Under the pieces are notes generated by a model. It was not told where the DNA came from, made no database searches, and worked only from the letters and a program-made list of their open reading frames with translations. A stretch of 20,035 bases of DNA from a virus: IMG/VR virus record IMGVR_UViG_3300005613_000513, positions 1 to 20,035 of that record. The stretch is one strand, 5' to 3'. Of this stretch, positions 7,999 to 20,035 are shown piece after piece. Positions within the stretch are counted from its first letter, which is position 1, and each line of letters starts with the position of its first letter. The translations under genes and the position numbers were made by a program.

Positions 7999-10156
7999 CA
8001 AATCGGTAAATAACTTTACGCTTGGGGAGATCTCTCCTCGCGCCCTGGGTAGAATAGATCTAGATGAGTATTCTTCCTCCTGCAAATACATGCAGCGTTT
8101 TACTCCTCTGAAGAACGGCGGGGCTGCTAAGTTATCAGGTACCGAGTATGTTAAGAGATTAGGCACGGTCGCCAATCTTGCCAATGTGGCACTTATTCCT
8201 TTTGAAACTGCTGACGCCTCTTATCAGATCATGATCACCCCTAATGATTACAATAACACTCGTTTTACGGTGTTTAAGGTGACTACAGTCGGAGCGCCAA
8301 CAGTAGGGGTTTGCAACAATACTTCCGACCTTTACTATCCCAAGACAGGAATAGATACTAAGCAATTCCAGTATGCTCAGGCAGGGGATGTGATGTTTAT
8401 CACTCACCTATCAGGTCTATGGCCAACAACAATGGTCACCTACTTTGCAGGGAACTTCCAGTTTACGGACCACAACCAGGTGTGGGGGTATGCTATGCCC
8501 CCAGAGATTAAAGGTCTGGACACGACTCGGATGGCTTTTCGTCCAGCGAATACAACAACTACAACTATCACCCCTAGTGGCACGAGTATAGGCATCTTAA
8601 CAGCTAGCTCCGGTATCTTTGATCCTGGGCATGTCGGGTATTACTTTAAGCTAACTCACGGCTCGACCACAGGTATCGCCAAGATCACCTCATACTCAAA
8701 TCCTGCAATAGTGCACTTCTCTGTGATCAATGGATTCACCCTTGGAGCAACTACAGCCACCACGAATTGGGAAGAGTGTGCCTGGTCTACATATCGTGGC
8801 TTTCCTAAGACGGTCGCCTTCTACGAACAATCCTTATATTTGGGAGGCAGCCCCTCTCAGCCTGGCACTCTTTGGAAGTCCAGGACAGGCGATGTTGTTT
8901 TCTTTATGGAGAGCAAATTCATCCAGGATACTATCGGCACTCCAGCTACGGATGTGACGGGCCTTAACTATTTCGGTGACGCTACAACCAGCGACCCGGC
9001 CTCCTTCACTATCGCCTCCCATGAGAGGAACGATATTGTGAGCCTCAGTGCTCTGAGACAGCTAAACGTGCTTACCAACCACACGGAATATGTGGCTTAC
9101 GGGAAAAACACTATTCTAAGCAACGATGATGTAACCATCTCACCCCAGACCAACTATGGCGCCCACACGGCGATGGCGGTGAGAAGAAATAACGAAACAG
9201 TTTTTATTAGGCGAGATAAGCTACAGGTCCGCAACTTTAAATATTCGGACAGCAATGGGTCGAATATCTCCCAGGATCTCACCCTTATGGCAGATCACCT
9301 CTACACTGAGGGCGGCAATAGCTGGGGATTCTCTCAGATTGTTTACCACAAATCTAGAGACACCTTTTGGTTACTAAATGAGAATGAGAAACTCCTCGCC
9401 TGCACCTACTTGCCAGAGGCGAAGGTGCTGGGCTGGAGTAAGCACGATATCGCGAGTGTGGAGGACATCCACCACTTGTCAGTTTCTAGAGCACCGGATA
9501 AGTCTGAGGCTTTGTATATTGTGGTTGAGCGGGATGTTGATGGGACAAATGAGTTTGTTCTAGAGAGAATACTTCCGGATTTCGACGGAACTTCCTACGC
9601 CTCTTTCTCTTCTACCGGGCCTAACAGGGGCGCATATCTTGACTCTCATGTTGCCTATAATCTATCGGGCAGCGGCACCGTAATTCCTGGGCTAGACCAC
9701 CTAGAGGGGAAAGAGGTTGCTGTGATAGTTCAGGGTAGATACATTGGAGATTACACAGTATCTAGCGGAGAGGTTGACTTGGGCGACCCAGTTAGTACTT
9801 TCAGCAGATACACTATTACAGGACTCAAATATTCAGCAGAAATCCAAACCTCCGATATTGAGGCAGGTGGAGACTTCGGTACAGCACAGGGTGCGATCCA
9901 GCGTATAGACCGAGTGACAGCTAAGGTGCATAAAACCTTCGACCTCCAGATTGGACAGACTGACGGTAACGGGATTATGGAGGCGGTGCCTTTCATAGAC
10001 AGCGATCCAACAAGTGGGCTAGTGCCTGAATCAAAGGACTATAGGGTTAATGGGTCATTCGGTCCAGATGGTCAGCAGTCGGTGCGCCTTCTATCAGAAG
10101 AACCCTACCCCTGCACGATTCTGAGCCTGGCACTTAGAGGGGTGACACATGATTAA
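7985..10156 (+). CDS. Tail tubular protein B (T7 gp12-like nozzle)
   Basis: This 723-residue protein is expected to form the conical nozzle of the short tail. The N-terminus, with NKSVNNFTLGEISPRALGRI (4-23) and then YMQRFTPLKNGGAAK (about 35-49), is characteristic of gp12-like nozzle proteins, and the rest is strand-rich as expected for a beta-propeller. The segment with LRQLNVLTNHTEYVAYG near 356-372 also fits. T7 gp12 is 794 aa, so this is of similar size. Start ATG 7985 lies within the end of the A gene, behind GGAG (7975-7978). It overlaps the next gene by 8 nt. Confidence 0.93.
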   Translation: MSKFNKSVNNFTLGEISPRALGRIDLDEYSSSCKYMQRFTPLKNGGAAKLSGTEYVKRLGTVANLANVALIPFETADASYQIMITPNDYNNTRFTVFKVTTVGAPTVGVCNNTSDLYYPKTGIDTKQFQYAQAGDVMFITHLSGLWPTTMVTYFAGNFQFTDHNQVWGYAMPPEIKGLDTTRMAFRPANTTTTTITPSGTSIGILTASSGIFDPGHVGYYFKLTHGSTTGIAKITSYSNPAIVHFSVINGFTLGATTATTNWEECAWSTYRGFPKTVAFYEQSLYLGGSPSQPGTLWKSRTGDVVFFMESKFIQDTIGTPATDVTGLNYFGDATTSDPASFTIASHERNDIVSLSALRQLNVLTNHTEYVAYGKNTILSNDDVTISPQTNYGAHTAMAVRRNNETVFIRRDKLQVRNFKYSDSNGSNISQDLTLMADHLYTEGGNSWGFSQIVYHKSRDTFWLLNENEKLLACTYLPEAKVLGWSKHDIASVEDIHHLSVSRAPDKSEALYIVVERDVDGTNEFVLERILPDFDGTSYASFSSTGPNRGAYLDSHVAYNLSGSGTVIPGLDHLEGKEVAVIVQGRYIGDYTVSSGEVDLGDPVSTFSRYTITGLKYSAEIQTSDIEAGGDFGTAQGAIQRIDRVTAKVHKTFDLQIGQTDGNGIMEAVPFIDSDPTSGLVPESKDYRVNGSFGPDGQQSVRLLSEEPYPCTILSLALRGVTHD

Positions 10157-10589
10157 GATCTCTAGGTTAGATTACTCCCAGGTTGCTGACATAATCGATC
10201 AGTTTAATCCAGTAATTGAGCCAGAGAATCTTGCTAAAGATCTCTTCAAATCTCTCCGTAATATCGAGGAGGATGTGATGGTTATGACTCGCGGGAGTGA
10301 GTTTATTTGTGTTGGCGGGTTCAAACACCTAAGGCGCGGAGTAGCTGAGGTGTGGCTTTTCTTAGATAAAAATGCTTATAAATATAAATTTGAATTTACC
10401 AAAGCAGTTAAGCGAATGGTAGACTTTGGATTAAATGAGATGGATCTCCATAGGATTGAGGCGGCAGTGCCAACCAGTCTGAAGAATGGAGCTAAATTTG
10501 AACGGCTATTGGGCTTTGAATTGGAGGGTGTCGCTACAAACTACGACTCCGCCATGCAAGACCACTGGCTATTTGCGAGGACAAAGTAA
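10149..10589 (+). CDS. T7 gp13-like protein with GNAT-like fold
   Basis: The 146-residue product lies where T7 carries gene 13 (138 aa), between the nozzle and the internal virion proteins. The C-terminal part looks like an acetyltransferase (GNAT) fold: VKRMVDFGLNEMDLHRIEAA (about 87-106), then NGAKFERLLGFELEGVA (about 113-129), which matches the motif of GNAT proteins in which a helix precedes the GF.xEG strand. Catalytic activity is not evident and gp13-like proteins are considered structural or assembly factors. The start at ATG 10149 has AGAGGGG (10136-10142) upstream, and the TAATG end overlaps the next gene by one base. Confidence 0.82.
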   Translation: MIKISRLDYSQVADIIDQFNPVIEPENLAKDLFKSLRNIEEDVMVMTRGSEFICVGGFKHLRRGVAEVWLFLDKNAYKYKFEFTKAVKRMVDFGLNEMDLHRIEAAVPTSLKNGAKFERLLGFELEGVATNYDSAMQDHWLFARTK

Positions 10590-11054: not shown

Positions 11055-13340
11055 ATGGCAGAGATACCCAAATTAGGTGGAACCAGTAGATTAGCAAGAC
11101 AGGCACCAGTCGATCCTCAAAATATGAGTTTCGTAGCTGCCGAAGGGCAGGCAATTCAGCAGCTCGGTAAAGGGCTAATGGATTTCGGGAAGGGTGTTGG
11201 CTCTTTGATGGCGGAGAGAGAAAGAGCAGAGGTGACGGAATTTGCCGATACTATGTCTCGAGAGTTCCGCGATAAGGCACGACAAGCCCATATCTCACTA
11301 AACAAACAATATGAAAAGCACGAAAATGATCCAGATGCTGGCGGCTATATCGGATATGGTGACTCCTTAAAGTCAGTTTTGACAGATCTCCAGCAGAGTT
11401 TGATCAAGGACTCGGATGCCTCGCAAGCGGCAAAAGATGCCTACTTGAAAAAGACAGGCACCACCCTGACCAACTATACCGTGAAAGGTAGAGTGGAAGA
11501 GAGTGAGTTGCAGTCGAATTTCTACCTTCGTCGCAGATCTGAAGCCACATATGGTTTAGGCCAATTCGCCTACACCGCTGGACCTTTTGAAGGAGACATG
11601 GAGCTTAAGAGGCACATGGTAGAGCTTAAAGGTCAGGAAGGGCACCAGCTCACGCCTAAACAAGTCCACGCCGATCAGATGAAGGCGATCAAGATAGCCA
11701 GAGACGGTGCTATTATGGGGATGGCTGAGAGAGGGTTGAATGGCTTAGTCGACCCAACAGCCTCACAGGAAGAGAAAGAGAAGGCAGTAGATGCTTTCCT
11801 AGATGGGAAAGTAAAAGGCACTGGGACCATGATGAGCACCATGACTCCTGCAGAGCACAGACGATATCGCAGCATGCTTCTAGCTAAGTCAAAATCAGAA
11901 TCTAAAGAAGTAGAGAAGAAGATGACAGTTGCTGTAAATAATGCTGTCGATCTAATGGTGTCAGGAGAGATCCCCGCCCCGAAGCAAGCCCAACAGATTG
12001 ATGAGGCCTTACAGTATGTAAATGCTTTGCCAGATGGTGTAGAGAAGACGAGAATACAGAAGGAGATCGCGGTAGCCAAAGAGGTTGGAGAGCTAACAAA
12101 AGAATTTCCTAATATGACTCAGTCTGAACTAGTTAGCGTTATGAAGGCAGATGGGTATAAGACAGCAGAGCTGGGAAGTAGGGATATCGAAGAGAAGTAT
12201 GATTCTATGGCTGACAGGGCTGCTAAGAGGATGATAGATAATAGGGAGTATGATTTCCCCCAAAGCGTAGCACATCTAGACCTATCTCCTGCGGAAGTGA
12301 TGGAGAAAGCTAAAGAGCTACAGGTGGGGAATGTAATGGCCATCTCTAAAGGGGAACAAGCCTCGATATTAAAAGCCTACGGATCGCTGTCGACATCTCA
12401 TGAGAAGAGTCTTTTCATAGACAGACTTGTAATGGCCCACCCAGAGGATGAGGATTTCGCTAGATTTGCCGGAGCACAGAGGCAGGTTCTAGCAGACTTA
12501 GAGAAAACGGACAGTACAACAGGGGGCTTAATGCTTATGGCTTCCTACTTCGATAACAATATATCTAAGGAACGAGTTATAGATAATTCTACTCCAGATA
12601 GGAAATCTGCTATAACAGACTCTTTCAATCAGAAATTTAGAGGGCAGGGTCCGGCGCTAGAGGATGCAGTGGCCAAGGCAATAGAGGACCACACTGCATA
12701 CATGGATATCTCTAACCTGCAAGAACGGGCTGAGATGGTACATGAGCAGACAACACTGGAGGCTAAACGCCTAATGACCACTGGGGTAAATAGAGATGCT
12801 GCCATAAAGCGGGCTGCCAATACGCTGCTTAACTCTAATTTCCAAGCAGTTAATACGGAAACTGCAAATTATGGGGTTCCAAAGAGTTTAAAAATAAACA
12901 AAGATGATATAATAAATTTCTCAGAAAAGGGTTTATCTAATGAGGTGTTGGCTGCCCTGGGCGTAAGCGAGTCTATCCAAATATTCGCGGGAACTGATCA
13001 GGAGTTTTTCGATACTATTCGGGACCAGAATCCCGTACTTGTCAACAACTCCACAGGCGATGGCGTTATTCTCACTGTAGAAGATCCGGATGATTATTAT
13101 ACTAGAAAGCCTCTCCCGAGAGAGGATGGCACCCCGGCAGAAATAATGTTTAAAGATATGAATAAAGTAGATATACCGACACCATCAGAGCAAACACCCA
13201 TAGGGTTACTGCCTACTAGGGGCGGACTATTTGCTGCCGAGTTTTATGCCAACTTCCCAGAAGCAGAGGAAGAGATGAAGGCATTTCAAGAGCAGGTCAT
13301 TAAAGAAAGAAGGGAAAGTTTCAGGAGAGTAAATGAGTAA
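11055..13340 (+). CDS. Internal virion protein C (T7 gp15-like)
   Basis: The 761-residue, almost wholly helical and charged protein corresponds in place and size to T7 gp15 (747 aa), an inner-core protein ejected to help form the DNA channel across the periplasm. The N-terminus (MAEIPKLGGTSRLARQAPVD, then a segment with AIQQLGKGLMDFGKGVGSLM around 33-52) resembles the start of many gp15-like proteins, and LRRRSEATYGLGQFAYTAGP is present near 159-178. I see no enzymatic motif, in particular no lytic transglycosylase signature. Start ATG 11055 follows AGGTG (11046-11050). It overlaps the next gene by 8 nt (ATGAGTAA). Confidence 0.85.
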   Translation: MAEIPKLGGTSRLARQAPVDPQNMSFVAAEGQAIQQLGKGLMDFGKGVGSLMAERERAEVTEFADTMSREFRDKARQAHISLNKQYEKHENDPDAGGYIGYGDSLKSVLTDLQQSLIKDSDASQAAKDAYLKKTGTTLTNYTVKGRVEESELQSNFYLRRRSEATYGLGQFAYTAGPFEGDMELKRHMVELKGQEGHQLTPKQVHADQMKAIKIARDGAIMGMAERGLNGLVDPTASQEEKEKAVDAFLDGKVKGTGTMMSTMTPAEHRRYRSMLLAKSKSESKEVEKKMTVAVNNAVDLMVSGEIPAPKQAQQIDEALQYVNALPDGVEKTRIQKEIAVAKEVGELTKEFPNMTQSELVSVMKADGYKTAELGSRDIEEKYDSMADRAAKRMIDNREYDFPQSVAHLDLSPAEVMEKAKELQVGNVMAISKGEQASILKAYGSLSTSHEKSLFIDRLVMAHPEDEDFARFAGAQRQVLADLEKTDSTTGGLMLMASYFDNNISKERVIDNSTPDRKSAITDSFNQKFRGQGPALEDAVAKAIEDHTAYMDISNLQERAEMVHEQTTLEAKRLMTTGVNRDAAIKRAANTLLNSNFQAVNTETANYGVPKSLKINKDDIINFSEKGLSNEVLAALGVSESIQIFAGTDQEFFDTIRDQNPVLVNNSTGDGVILTVEDPDDYYTRKPLPREDGTPAEIMFKDMNKVDIPTPSEQTPIGLLPTRGGLFAAEFYANFPEAEEEMKAFQEQVIKERRESFRRVNE

Positions 13341-14562
13341 TCTTAGCTGGGGTTTTGGCAAAGAAAAAAGATTTGCCCGAATAAAGAAGAAGCCAGGCTT
13401 CGGAGAGGGTCTAATGGCCAGCTTCATACAGGGCGCCGAGTTCGGCGAATCCCTATCTCTAGTGAGGGCAGCTCAGATAAAACTAGCTGAAAGAGAAGAT
13501 GACGTTTGGGATGCTGACACTTTAAATGAAGAATTTACAGCAGTATCAAAACCTTTCACAGAGCCAATGTCATACTCTAAGGCTAAATTGATTAATAGGT
13601 TTGCCAAGGATAAAAGAAAGGTAGAAGAACTCAAGCAGGGGGGAGACCCTGACAGCAACTTTGAAGCAGCTATGAAGTTCGGCATGGGTATGATCCCTCA
13701 AATCCTAGACCCTATCGGGGTAGGCCTGTCTCTGGCATTAGGCGGCGGCATAACTAAAGCTATGGCTGTTTACGCGAACAGAGCCAGAAAGGCGGCGGTA
13801 GCTGCCCAAGCAATAAAAGGCGGCGTTAAGGAAGTAGCAGAGCAGGGGGCGAAAGAGGTCGCAAAGCAGAGCCTGACTAGGTCTATGGGCGAAGGTGTCG
13901 CGGGTAACGTGCTGTCAGAAGCTGCTTTCGTCACACCATCTCAAGAGTATCAGAGAGAAGAGGTTGACGCATATATAAGTATAAGAAATGCGGTTATTGC
14001 TGGTATGGCTTTTCCGGGCGTTATTCACGGTATGAAAAAGAGCCTACAGTTTACGAGTGCAGCCATAAATGAGAAACTTATAAAGAATGCAGAAATGCAG
14101 CTACAGCATAGCAAGAGAATAGACAACGAGGCTTTGGCATTTTTCAAAGCTAAGGATGAGCTACCTGCACTTCGGAAAAGAATAGATGATATGTGGAAGG
14201 AGAAGACTCCTAAGGTTGAGCAGATAGAGGAGTTGGAGAAACTATATAGAGAGATTGACGAATACGAGATAGATAGAGCCGCAGAGATAGAGAAGGCCAA
14301 CAGCCCTGAGGCAGGAGTCCACTACGACCAAGAGGCTTCTGCCCGGTATAAAGAGAACCTAGATAAGAGCTTTGATGATAAGGATATAGACAATGTTCGC
14401 CAATCTTTAGATGAACTAGATGAGGAAGTAGCTATTTTAGAAAAAGAGGGTATGGATAATGAATATATAAAAGAGATAGAAGAGGTCAGACAGGAAAGAG
14501 GAAAGATGGAAGAATTGGATAGAGCAATTAAGGCCGCCAAGAAGTGCGCCGAGGAAGGATAA
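13333..14562 (+). CDS. gp16-like ejection protein, N-terminal part (separate gene)
   Basis: This 409-residue protein has a basic N-terminus (residues 9-20), two hydrophobic helical segments (about 115-147, containing MIPQILDPIGVGLSLALGGG, and 218-236) and a long charged coiled-coil C-terminal half (about 278-409). The LDP motif with adjoining Gly/Ala-rich membrane-active helix is typical of large gp16-type ejection proteins. T7 gp16 (1318 aa) would correspond to this product plus the next one (409 + 820 aa). The T7 transglycosylase region is not seen. Start ATG 13333 is preceded by AGGAGAG (13323-13329). The stop codon overlaps the next start by one base (TAATG). The assignment rests on order, length and layout. 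Confidence 0.8.
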   Translation: MSNLSWGFGKEKRFARIKKKPGFGEGLMASFIQGAEFGESLSLVRAAQIKLAEREDDVWDADTLNEEFTAVSKPFTEPMSYSKAKLINRFAKDKRKVEELKQGGDPDSNFEAAMKFGMGMIPQILDPIGVGLSLALGGGITKAMAVYANRARKAAVAAQAIKGGVKEVAEQGAKEVAKQSLTRSMGEGVAGNVLSEAAFVTPSQEYQREEVDAYISIRNAVIAGMAFPGVIHGMKKSLQFTSAAINEKLIKNAEMQLQHSKRIDNEALAFFKAKDELPALRKRIDDMWKEKTPKVEQIEELEKLYREIDEYEIDRAAEIEKANSPEAGVHYDQEASARYKENLDKSFDDKDIDNVRQSLDELDEEVAILEKEGMDNEYIKEIEEVRQERGKMEELDRAIKAAKKCAEEG

Positions 14563-17041: not shown

Positions 17042-18352
17042 ATGACAGTATCGAACACGACAGTAAAACAAACCTACAACGGAACTGGATCACAAACGAC
17101 CTTCGCTATTCCCTTCGCTTATATTTCTGGGGAAGCCTTGGATGTGACAGTCGTCACCCTAATAGATAATGCGGGAGTAGAAACAGAGCTGACTGAGGGC
17201 ACTCACTACACGCTCACGCCAGCGGGTGACACTCCGAATAATGTGGAGATGATCACGCCTCCAGCAGCAGATGAGACCCTGAGAGTGCAGCGTAGAACAC
17301 CTCTCAAGCAAGAGGACGATCTATCAGTTAGTCAGGTGTACCAGCCAGAGATAATTGAGAACGGATTAGACCGACTAACATACCAATCACAAGAACAAGC
17401 GGACAATATAGATACATTAGAGGCGGGCGGAAGCACCTCTACTATAGTTTCCGGTGCAGTTGTTGCTGACTGGGCTGCTGCCACAGATTACTTAGAAGAT
17501 GAACTCACCATTGAAGGTGGGGTATGTTATAGAGCACTTTCCGATCACACTTCATCGGGTGCTTTTAACACTGACCTAGTGGGAGGAAAATGGGAAATTT
17601 TTCCAATAGTAGGAGAACAGGGTCCAAAGGGAGACACGGGCGACACCGGAGCAACGGGTGCGACCGGAGCCACAGGGGCAACCGGACCAGCCGGAGCGGA
17701 CGGGGCAGACGGGATCTTTTCCGAGATAGCGAGCCAGGCAGAGGCAGAAGCGGGCGTAAACAACACAAAAGGCATGACACCCCTACGGACCAAACAAGCG
17801 ATAGACGACCAAGTACCAGACCTGACAGTGATAACGGATCTACAAGCGCAACAAACAACGAACACCGCGAACATAGTGGACCACGAATACAGAATCACGC
17901 AGCTAGAAGGCTACGCGACTTTTGCAACCGGAAGATTCTCCGGCTCACAGAAACTAAAAAATAATCTCGCAGTTGCCGAGCCGCTCTTAGGGGCGACAGC
18001 ACCTATCGTCGGCGAAGGTAAGGGAAGCAGTCTCCTGAGAGATGGTGATGGCACCGAGTTTGCTGAGGTTATGGTTTATATTAAAAGAGTTGATGATTTA
18101 ACAACTAGATTCACATCTTTCCGCCTCATCATGCAGTATGTAGTTGATACATGGTACATCGGCAGAGCTGATACCTACCAGTTAGCGGAAACCCTAGAAG
18201 TAGACGGTGTCACCTTGTCGGTCGTTACTGACGGAGGGACCAAGGAAGGTCAAGTATATTATGTCACGGATGACATGGGCGGGGATGACACCGTCCATTT
18301 CAACAGCAGTGAGATTAAATGGTTTGGGCAAGAAATCCCAATTGGAGTATAA
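17042..18352 (+). CDS. Tail fibre with T7 gp17-type N-terminal domain and collagen-like stalk
   Basis: The 436-residue fibre attaches to the tail through its first about 125 residues, which match the T7 gp17 N-terminal domain: TYNGTGSQTTFAIPFAYISG (11-30), GTHYTLTP (53-60) and LRVQRRTPLKQEDDLSVSQV (80-99). Residues about 141-188 (VADWAAATDYLEDELTIEGG and YRALSDHTSSGAF) resemble small sugar-binding modules of the chitinase type. A collagen-like run of 11 Gly-X-Y triplets (191-224) follows, then the fibre motif NNTKGMTPLRTKQAID (240-255) and a short coiled coil. The C-terminal domain (about 289-436) is unfamiliar and is the likely receptor-binding part. Start ATG 17042 has AGGA about 7 nt upstream. 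Base composition is clearly GC-rich around 17620-17930 compared with the flanks, suggesting mosaic origin. Confidence 0.92.
   Translation: MTVSNTTVKQTYNGTGSQTTFAIPFAYISGEALDVTVVTLIDNAGVETELTEGTHYTLTPAGDTPNNVEMITPPAADETLRVQRRTPLKQEDDLSVSQVYQPEIIENGLDRLTYQSQEQADNIDTLEAGGSTSTIVSGAVVADWAAATDYLEDELTIEGGVCYRALSDHTSSGAFNTDLVGGKWEIFPIVGEQGPKGDTGDTGATGATGATGATGPAGADGADGIFSEIASQAEAEAGVNNTKGMTPLRTKQAIDDQVPDLTVITDLQAQQTTNTANIVDHEYRITQLEGYATFATGRFSGSQKLKNNLAVAEPLLGATAPIVGEGKGSSLLRDGDGTEFAEVMVYIKRVDDLTTRFTSFRLIMQYVVDTWYIGRADTYQLAETLEVDGVTLSVVTDGGTKEGQVYYVTDDMGGDDTVHFNSSEIKWFGQEIPIGV
17612..17713 (+). repeat. Collagen-like Gly-X-Y repeat in the tail fibre gene
   Basis: Eleven consecutive Gly-X-Y triplets, with GAT repeated four times, are encoded here. 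At DNA level this is a near-tandem 9-bp repeat of the type GGNGCNACN, with varied third bases. Such segments form trimeric rods in phage fibres and are common sites of recombination and of length change. The complementary strand gives a spurious long open frame for the same reason. Confidence 0.88.
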
Positions 18353-18357
18353 TCACT

Positions 18358-20035
18358 ATGAGAAAACTATTATCCCTATTCATCATTACGTTGGCACTTA
18401 CGAGTATCTATGGTTTCCGTTTCTACGAAGGGCGCACCCTTCTTGGTGCTAATGCAAAACCTGATGCCTCTGCGGTGTTGGATCTTCAAACCACAACTCT
18501 AGGATTTCTATCTCCCAGAATGACCACTGTCCAAAGGGATGCGGTAGTTTCTCCGGCGGAAGGTTTACAGATCTATAATACTGATACTGACACCATAGAC
18601 GTGTACAGCGGGATAGCGTGGGAATCAATTGCCCCAGAGGCCAGTCTTGGAGACTTGACGGATGTTACCATTGGCACCCCAGTTACAGGGGAAGTGCTTC
18701 AGTATACCGGAGCTGTTTGGGAAGACCAAACTCAAACCTCTCAGTACATAATTCATGACGGTACGGAGACCGTTGAGCAGATGTTTGATGAAACCGTTAA
18801 CAGGGGGATATTTGAGGACCTTGTTGTTTCGGATGATGGGGGTCTGTCAATCAGCTGGACAGCTGGAGAGGTTTACGATATTGCAACCAAGTCAGTGATT
18901 AATGTTAATGCCGGATCAGACAGCTGTACGGCTAATGACATTACTTACATTTACTGGGTAGCAGGCAACACGCTTACGGTAAGCACCACTGCTCCTTCTG
19001 GTAATAATGTGCGGATAGCGGAGGTCGGCTGCTCTAATGGAGATATTGTATCCCTACATAACGAATCCCCGATATTTTCAAGGGAGTCTGATATAGTTAA
19101 CGGGCTTTCGGAAATCGCCCCTATGCTAGTCACAAGCGGCATGCAGATAACAGAAGATACTGACGTAACTAACATCTGGGATATTTCGATGGGCGCAGGC
19201 GCTTACTACATCGACCAACGTAAGAAGCAAACTATAGCAGCGGCAGACTCTCGCACAGCCCTAATGGTCCGCCATTTTAGGGCTGCCGGAGTATGGACTA
19301 TAGATACGAACGCAGAGATAGATACTACTCAGTATGATGATGGCACTAACTTAGTTGCTGTTACAGCGGGAAAATATTATAAGTCCTGCTTCTACACTGC
19401 CGAGTCCGGAACTATCCACTGGGTATATCCACAGGCGGAATATGATACTGGTTCCGAAGCGATAGGGGCTGCTTGTCCTATAGCGGACGGAATGGATAAT
19501 ATGGTCCCTCTAACTGCCTTATCACTGTCGGCGGGTGCGACTGAGCTTCCTAATGCTCTATCCTCGGCATGGCAGGACATTAGACCTCGCTTTGTGAAGA
19601 GTGAGGAGGTCCACGATCAGCAATATTATGATGTTAAAAACATTTATAAAAACTATTCTAGTGATGCGGTATATACTGCGATCTACGGCGCAGGGAGTCC
19701 AGTCTATGACAACTTCGGTACTGAGTCTCCTACAGTTCCAGCGGGAACCGCCTACCCTAATGGCGACAGTGTAAGCGCCGGACTAATAAATATCGGTAGA
19801 AACTGGACCTTCACTATAGAACTAGACCCTGAGACTCTTGCAGGTACAACTCGTCAAACATGGGTTGGCTGTGAAGACTACACTACCGAAGAATGTGGTT
19901 CTACAGCAGGTACGAACTTCCTCTTTGGGTACATCCCCAACACAACCACTTTTTATGTTGGCGGGGTTCAGGGAACTAACTACCAAGTTATCCAAAATAT
20001 CGGGGCTATTCTAACGGATTCGTCCTTCAACACTA
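18358..20035 (+). CDS. Fibre-like structural protein with N-terminal hydrophobic (signal-like) segment, incomplete at the window edge
   Basis: An open frame from ATG 18358 runs 559 codons to the window end with no stop. It is 5 nt after the fibre gene and has GGAG (18344-18347) 10 nt upstream. The N-terminus MRKLLSLFIITLALTSIYG looks like a signal peptide or a membrane anchor. Then come two modules common in fibre-type proteins: SAVLDLQTTTLGFLSPRMTT (38-57) with AEGLQIYNTDTDTIDVYSG (67-85), and LGDLTDVTIGTPVTGEVLQY (97-116) with TGAVWED. The rest is strand-rich and Gly/Thr/Asp-rich, with several Cys residues (SCTAND, GCSNGD, GCEDYT, EECGS). It is probably a second tail fibre or appendage, or an exported phage protein. 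The C-terminal domain lies outside the window. Confidence 0.85.
   Translation, partial: MRKLLSLFIITLALTSIYGFRFYEGRTLLGANAKPDASAVLDLQTTTLGFLSPRMTTVQRDAVVSPAEGLQIYNTDTDTIDVYSGIAWESIAPEASLGDLTDVTIGTPVTGEVLQYTGAVWEDQTQTSQYIIHDGTETVEQMFDETVNRGIFEDLVVSDDGGLSISWTAGEVYDIATKSVINVNAGSDSCTANDITYIYWVAGNTLTVSTTAPSGNNVRIAEVGCSNGDIVSLHNESPIFSRESDIVNGLSEIAPMLVTSGMQITEDTDVTNIWDISMGAGAYYIDQRKKQTIAAADSRTALMVRHFRAAGVWTIDTNAEIDTTQYDDGTNLVAVTAGKYYKSCFYTAESGTIHWVYPQAEYDTGSEAIGAACPIADGMDNMVPLTALSLSAGATELPNALSSAWQDIRPRFVKSEEVHDQQYYDVKNIYKNYSSDAVYTAIYGAGSPVYDNFGTESPTVPAGTAYPNGDSVSAGLINIGRNWTFTIELDPETLAGTTRQTWVGCEDYTTEECGSTAGTNFLFGYIPNTTTFYVGGVQGTNYQVIQNIGAILTDSSFNT

Follow-up and report, generated by a model that had tools for sequence, protein, structure and literature searches.

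A signal-tagged fibre gene behind a dock-bearing adaptor in T7-like phages, and a possible exported route for phage fibres

Phage tail fibres are textbook cytoplasmic products, and a gene pair that joins a tail adaptor to a fibre with a signal-peptide-like start is unexpected for proteins that normally assemble within the cell. Such a pair lies at the end of the stretch of virus DNA analysed here (the window, 20,035 bases, i.e., the entire virus record), where an initial annotation had described a fibre-like protein that might be membrane-anchored or secreted, docked by a hydrophobic helix, or shared with host secreted adhesins. The question raised by this locus is whether the fibre leaves the cytoplasm and, if so, where it would end up. 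The features concerned are listed below.

17042..18352, + strand: adaptor gene, 436 aa, with a T7-fibre-like N-terminus, a collagen stalk and a C-terminal dock; no signal peptide
17906..18349, + strand: dock domain, the last 148 aa of the adaptor (profile search; structure model)
18344..18347, + strand: GGAG, likely ribosome-binding site of the fibre gene (read from the sequence)
18358..20035, + strand: incomplete fibre-like gene, 559 codons, stop-less; body variable from about residue 95-144
18358..18417, + strand: signal-peptide-like N-terminus MRKLLSLFIITLALTSIYGF (rule score 3.04; aligned counterparts in relatives)
18460..18639, + strand: conserved domain behind the signal, residues 35-94, KPDASAVLDLQTTTLGF...MTTVQRDA...GLQIYNTDT (alignments; viral and bacterial matches)

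The gene order of the window is that of a T7-like podovirus, i.e., portal (phrog_332), major capsid (phrog_3437), tail protein (phrog_376), internal virion proteins (one of which matches phrog_684) and fibre. Right behind the tail protein gene, positions 10149-10589 encode a small acetyltransferase-like or internal virion protein (phrog_4177, phrog_308). Compared with isolated phages, the portal reached at best 38% identity, with mainly Pelagibacter phages among the matches listed. In bacterial genomes, it was matched in 3 of 368 genomes from the phylum (taken to be Bdellovibrionota) to which a Halobacteriovorax marinus record belongs, at 25-32% identity (too distant for naming a host), and in none of 198 Bacteroidota genomes. 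Loci of the window lineage have a G+C content of 37-63%.

The start of the fibre gene and its signal-like N-terminus

Since the window is the whole record, the fibre gene is truly incomplete, as had been claimed, and its C-terminus is out of reach; 559 residues can be read from ATG 18358 without a stop codon before the window ends. This ATG is situated 5 bases past the adaptor stop codon, and the start position is the same in relatives. Over the next 60 codons, the only further in-frame starts are TTG 18391 (within the hydrophobic stretch), GTG 18475 and TTG 18478 (both inside the KPDASAVLDL motif) and ATG 18520 (beyond the motif), and the upstream in-frame ATG 18319 falls within the adaptor gene. 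Because of these positions, no start omits the hydrophobic part yet retains the conserved domain, and the search for an alternative start proposed in the initial annotation hence supported ATG 18358. That the start is misassigned, or that an ordinary cytoplasmic fibre happens to begin with hydrophobic residues, could be argued from the incompleteness of the gene and from a start known from sequence alone, but would have to contend with the ribosome-binding site, the spacing from the adaptor stop, the conservation in 13 T7-like phages and the lack of any other start that retains the conserved domain, and we consider it very improbable indeed. As the counts given below bear out, the hydrophobic start of the window fibre is not due to chance.

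The basic pair and hydrophobic stretch noticed earlier were readily recovered, i.e., R2-K3 followed by 17 uncharged, mostly hydrophobic residues. Signal-like starts were called with a home-made rule rather than with SignalP, namely a net positive start followed by at least 8 uncharged residues with a mean hydropathy of at least 2.2. By this rule, the window N-terminus carries a net charge of +2 ahead of its core and an uncharged run of 17, i.e., both the positive n-region and the hydrophobic core of a Sec signal. The candidate -1 cleavage positions are 16 or 19, and the site is not a classic AXA. A lipobox Cys is absent, the window fibre having no Cys in its first 90 residues, so that it does not resemble a bacterial lipoprotein. 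The several Cys residues that had been taken as a sign of export are present (six in 559 residues), but the other structural proteins of the window carry 0 to 7 each (7 in 566 for the gene in the terminase position). As its Cys content is not special, this character was dropped as export evidence.

The conserved motif (KPDASAVLDL...MTTVQRDA) comes after MRKLLSLFIITLALTSIYGF in the fibre protein, and the motif at residues 35-94 often occurs in phage fibres as well as in secreted proteins of bacteria. The fibre-type repeats previously proposed were borne out only in part, as reading the sequence by eye showed a single copy of this 60-residue motif. In the alignment of relatives, the hydrophobic part varies as signal peptides do, and the adjoining domain is conserved. 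A motif search returned 31 viral loci, and in L005 and L012 the motif likewise stands directly behind a hydrophobic N-terminus. Since the motif genes of both loci lie just 3' of the same kind of adaptor as in the window, the adaptor was used as search query instead of the fibre. Of 74 further viral ORFs that contain the motif and have their start intact, 11 passed the signal rule and only that of L253 had the motif right behind the signal; the motif alone was for this reason rejected as evidence of export.

Searches with the fibre protein gave no match in Pfam and NCBIfam, nothing of weight among PDB sequences and one marginal PHROG match to its body (phrog_1959, E 0.0038), while comparison of the whole protein found no direct relatives among viral contigs and four weak matches among phage records. 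Structure prediction of the window fibre alone reached a mean pLDDT of 31.5, and therefore no fold is claimed. In pairwise BLASTP of 11 signal-tagged fibres, the similarity of the window fibre was mostly confined to the first 90-150 residues; such a conserved N-terminus with a variable rest is what a docked fibre would be expected to show.

The adaptor, its dock domain and the gene pair

The adaptor matches the PHROG tail protein phrog_1640 (E 1.4e-19, residues 1-119) and Pfam Collagen (PF01391, residues 191-224). The T7 tail-fibre N-terminal domain is absent from the window fibre and present in the adaptor preceding it, where its Pfam match (PF03906) falls under its cut-off. Adaptor counterparts in L005/L038 and L012/L036 are 43-61% identical. 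As with the T7 gp17-type fibres of podoviruses, the window fibre is positioned behind the internal virion protein genes, with the T7-like N-terminus on the preceding gene; in contrast to those fibres, it is split into an adaptor and a distal fibre, of which the distal part has a predicted export signal.

The adaptor search yielded 56 loci, and 24 entries, including the window and loci from the earlier adaptor search, were inspected by eye. In each locus whose adaptor ended in the dock, the following gene had a signal-like start, which was lacking where an adaptor-like protein had no dock. A dock profile built from 14 members (L253 being outside it) was run with hmmsearch over all collected loci. 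The dock was found in 16 distinct loci, in 15 of which a signal-tagged fibre directly follows it, i.e., in 13 T7-like phages (window, L036, L038, L041, L123, L125, L126, L039, L127, L128, L129, L147 and L253) and in two phages in Bdellovibrionota genomes. Nine of the 13 T7-like pairs were found via the adaptor alone, without selection for a signal. Upon inspection of its genes, G045 was dropped as a dock locus, as its match covered only 32 positions of the adaptor linker. The adaptors at L128:10019-10936 and L253:5080-5988 have collagen and a dock without a T7-like N-terminus.

The signal rule was changed once, from a 10-residue to an 8-residue core, and the change was applied to all sets; with it, the number of passing fibres rose from 10 to all of the 12 (the fibre start of L125 having been placed by hand at ATG 11310). 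None of 82 upstream genes in the same loci passed, with any start in the first 40 codons allowed, and neither did any of 10 genes following adaptors without a dock, several of these ten being near-copies. The rule was likewise passed by none of 42 tail/fibre genes from six phages of other hosts, a set hand-picked from annotation rather than covering all genes of those phages. These 42 comprised 28 genes of the phi1422-group phages 56, 138, ZF40 and phiPLPE and 14 of two Pelagibacter phages; the Pelagibacter relatives HTVC034P and HTVC035P had no signal-tagged gene among those tested 3' of the fibre.

The dock domain has no sequence match in Pfam, PHROG or PDB. An AlphaFold2 model of the adaptor end (pLDDT 80, pTM 0.63) best matched the C-terminal domain of T4 gp9 (1qex; Z 8.4, 2.9 Å, 105 residues), Z 8.4 being a level that unrelated models reach too. 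Further structural matches were, in order, a protein of Klebsiella phage KP1 and Acinetobacter phage tailspike C-terminal parts, then C1q/TNF-like domains. Foldseek of the dock model against PDB gave none below E 0.001, the best being a phage tail fibre (E 1.8e-3). A predicted gp9-like fold at Z 8.4 proves no function, and it is the gene order that suggests a fibre connector. The dock may be likened to T4 gp9, the baseplate connector of the long tail fibres, in its predicted fold and suggested fibre-holding role, but it differs in its lack of a PDB sequence match and in ending a collagen stalk or standing alone.

Signal-tagged proteins in relatives, bacterial genomes and isolated phages

Some T7-like relatives have a second signal-tagged fibre downstream (881-1342 aa), and further small signal-tagged proteins were observed in their fibre cassettes:

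L036:13890-16535: second signal-tagged fibre
L038:16064-18895: second signal-tagged fibre
L123:14562-18590: second signal-tagged fibre
L125:15194-18376: second signal-tagged fibre
L125:14038-14955: small signal-tagged protein
L125:18378-18929: small signal-tagged protein
L038:18906-19412: small signal-tagged protein

The second fibres begin with MKK..., followed by NYP or QYP and a GGG run. An S74 chaperone domain was found in that of L036 (E 5.2e-10), i.e., in one of seven related virus records, and CBM5/12-like modules in those of L123 and L125. In some relatives, the fibre body has matches among phage tail-fibre or spike PHROG families.

In bacterial genomes, the dock profile had matches in 3 of the 368 Bdellovibrionota genomes (two of them already in the profile) and, in searches with no positive control, in none of 198 Bacteroidota genomes and none of 115 genomes of a third phylum (with a record titled Gammaproteobacteria). 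Clear pairs of a dock and a signal-tagged fibre were present in two of the 368 (G281 and G364), and neither of these docks had a match in the phage and plasmid collections. The pair on contig 52 of G281 lies within a phage with a gpA-type terminase, a lambda-family portal, a capsid-protease and a tape measure, which appears to be integrated since the contig continues with genes for GTP cyclohydrolase I and ABC transporters. On contig 76 of G364, the pair is located 3' of tail genes and 5' of a region resembling a lysis cassette. The third, weaker dock (contig 71 of G202, E 2e-7) belongs to a phage with a P22-type coat, where the dock-like protein is followed by a gene other than the fibre. Signal-tagged proteins of this phage and of the isolated Bdellovibrio phage phi1422 are situated as follows:

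G202 (L306) 11677-12234: stand-alone 185-aa adaptor-like protein (phrog_26190) of the P22-type-coat phage
G202 (L306) 12221-14026: signal-tagged fibre following the adaptor-like protein
phi1422 (L307) 40429-42273: gp68, annotated hypothetical, textbook signal peptide, tail-fibre region
phi1422 (L307) 44298-44810: gp75, annotated hypothetical, textbook signal peptide, tail-fibre region

The adaptor-like protein and signal-tagged fibre of G202 are, going by their predicted products, another split layout. In phi1422, gp68 (614 aa, MKFMIAFIIALFSVTMATAQIKG...) comes directly after gp67, the annotated tail fibre, and gp75 (MKSFAFLFILLFGFLAQASFW...) is encoded further along; gp68, gp75 and gp01 were the only 3 of 48 tested genes to pass the signal rule. 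What phi1422, an isolated phage, shares with the window is the presence of signal-tagged proteins around its tail-fibre gene; gp68 differs in being annotated as hypothetical and in matching only its own record in the phage collection. This phage is reported to be among myoviruses that share their virion morphology across other hosts (PMC3391216). In the Bdellovibrio phages phi1402 and MAC3UK, none of 7 tested fibre or collar genes, hand-picked from annotation, had a signal, and by this predicted lack both phages count against generalising signal-tagged fibres to Bdellovibrio phages.

Across 18 comparable proteins, the uncharged hydrophobic runs span 8-17 residues, a length rather small for membrane anchors and typical of signals that are cleaved, so that a cleaved signal fits better. 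Together with the conservation of the trait across the lineage, these short runs make secretion the best supported of the three readings offered initially. Docking by a hydrophobic helix is less likely than secretion. It would make the hydrophobic N-terminus a retained plug, never exported, that inserts into the adaptor dock in the cytoplasm. The almost invariant pairing of the dock with such an N-terminus would fit a plug, as would the N-terminal docking of the long fibres of T4. However, the second fibres and the small cassette proteins share this kind of N-terminus with no dock ahead of them, and the hydrophobic part is variable like signal peptides next to a conserved domain. Because the second fibres and the signal-tagged fibres of G202 and phi1422 start alike without a dock directly ahead, we regard the plug as improbable.

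Possible export and docking, and the relation to secreted adhesins

Our preferred reading, held tentatively and at slightly below even chances, is that the window protein is exported via Sec and docks to the adaptor, as the distal fibre within a receptor-binding module made up of two genes. The first gene would provide a tail-bound adaptor with a T7-fibre-like N-terminus, a collagen stalk and a gp9-like dock at its tip, and the second a fibre whose Sec-type signal peptide would lead it out of the cytoplasm. The exported fibre would then shed its signal and fold outside, assisted by the S74 chaperone in some relatives, after which its mature conserved N-terminus (the GDRVKPDASAVL... domain) would attach to the dock as virions exit the cell. 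While we infer export and cleavage of the fibre from its sequence, docking, and docking at or after lysis, are conjecture. What was directly seen is that the signal-like N-terminus is conserved, that adaptor and fibre genes form a strict pair, that this pair recurs in phages within Bdellovibrionota genomes, and that phi1422 has a similar layout. Against such a module count the adaptors of L128 and L253, with their predicted lack of a T7-like N-terminus, and the fact that an exported fibre and a cytoplasmic virion would have to meet late; we know of no precedent for an exported fibre joining a cytoplasmic virion late. No report of signal-tagged phage fibres behind adaptors was found in the literature searched, the coverage of which left most subscription journals outside.

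The closest secreted counterparts are the mosaic adhesive trimer (MAT) fibres of Bdellovibrio bacteriovorus, described as having a signal peptide, a conserved 130-residue domain, variable tips and S74 in 13 of 21 (PMC10769870). The signal peptide, the phage-fibre-related body and the S74 end in some are shared with the fibres studied here, but the window fibre lacks the approximately 130-aa beta-rich domain behind the signal, the place of which is taken by the KPDASA motif, and its gene sits in a phage tail module. An hhalign comparison of three MAT-like N-termini, taken from Bdellovibrionota loci rather than from the 21 published proteins, with the fibre alignment gave a probability of 7.4 over 13 columns. 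Because the MAT N-terminal domain is absent, the window fibre was not filed as a MAT. The 60-residue motif is nevertheless common to large fibre-like proteins in 36 of the 368 Bdellovibrionota genomes, so the suggestion of a protein shared with host secreted adhesins survives for the motif and not for the MAT domain. Fibre-like frames of up to 4503 aa with an internal, often multi-copy motif were observed in Bdellovibrionota (L054, L061, L063 and others). Some secreted Bacteroidota proteins also carry this motif (SAALDVxSTTKGFLPPRMTT) directly behind the signal peptide, but differ in that the dock was not found in 198 Bacteroidota genomes.

The main alternative is that the fibre, once exported, would remain on or around the infected cell, much as MAT fibres do on Bdellovibrio, and act as a phage-made, non-virion adhesin, which might block superinfection or change adhesion or prey binding. 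The signal-like N-terminus throughout the paired fibres, the motif in large proteins of those 36 genomes and the several other small signal-tagged proteins in the same cassettes would all be in line with such an adhesin. Moreover, the hosts of the paired loci are related to bacteria that display secreted phage-fibre-like MAT adhesins (PMC10769870), and lambda Lom, an exported outer-membrane protein, is encoded between tail spike and tail fibre genes (PMC12309495). On the other hand, a surface adhesin would leave the adaptors ending without a variable tip, and it sits poorly with fibre genes that, in T7-like phages, strictly adjoin a virion-type adaptor ending in a connector-like dock, and with relatives whose fibre bodies match tail-fibre families; we deem it a doubtful but serious candidate.

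Returning to the two-gene module, it is conceivable, though we would not yet count on it, that phages of Bdellovibrionota make their fibres by a split route, with a cytoplasmic adaptor and a Sec-exported distal fibre that is matured outside and added at release. If true, the secreted MAT prey-recognition fibres of the host and the phage fibres share an exported-fibre lifestyle and may swap parts. More generally, if an adaptor and a signal-tagged fibre form a conserved pair in several virion types, then either receptor-binding proteins could be extracytoplasmic and join the virion late, or phages would regularly coat their infected hosts with exported fibres. The question can be tested in an isolated phage, phi1422, and the pair bears on the origin of the phage-like adhesins behind prey recognition in predatory bacteria.
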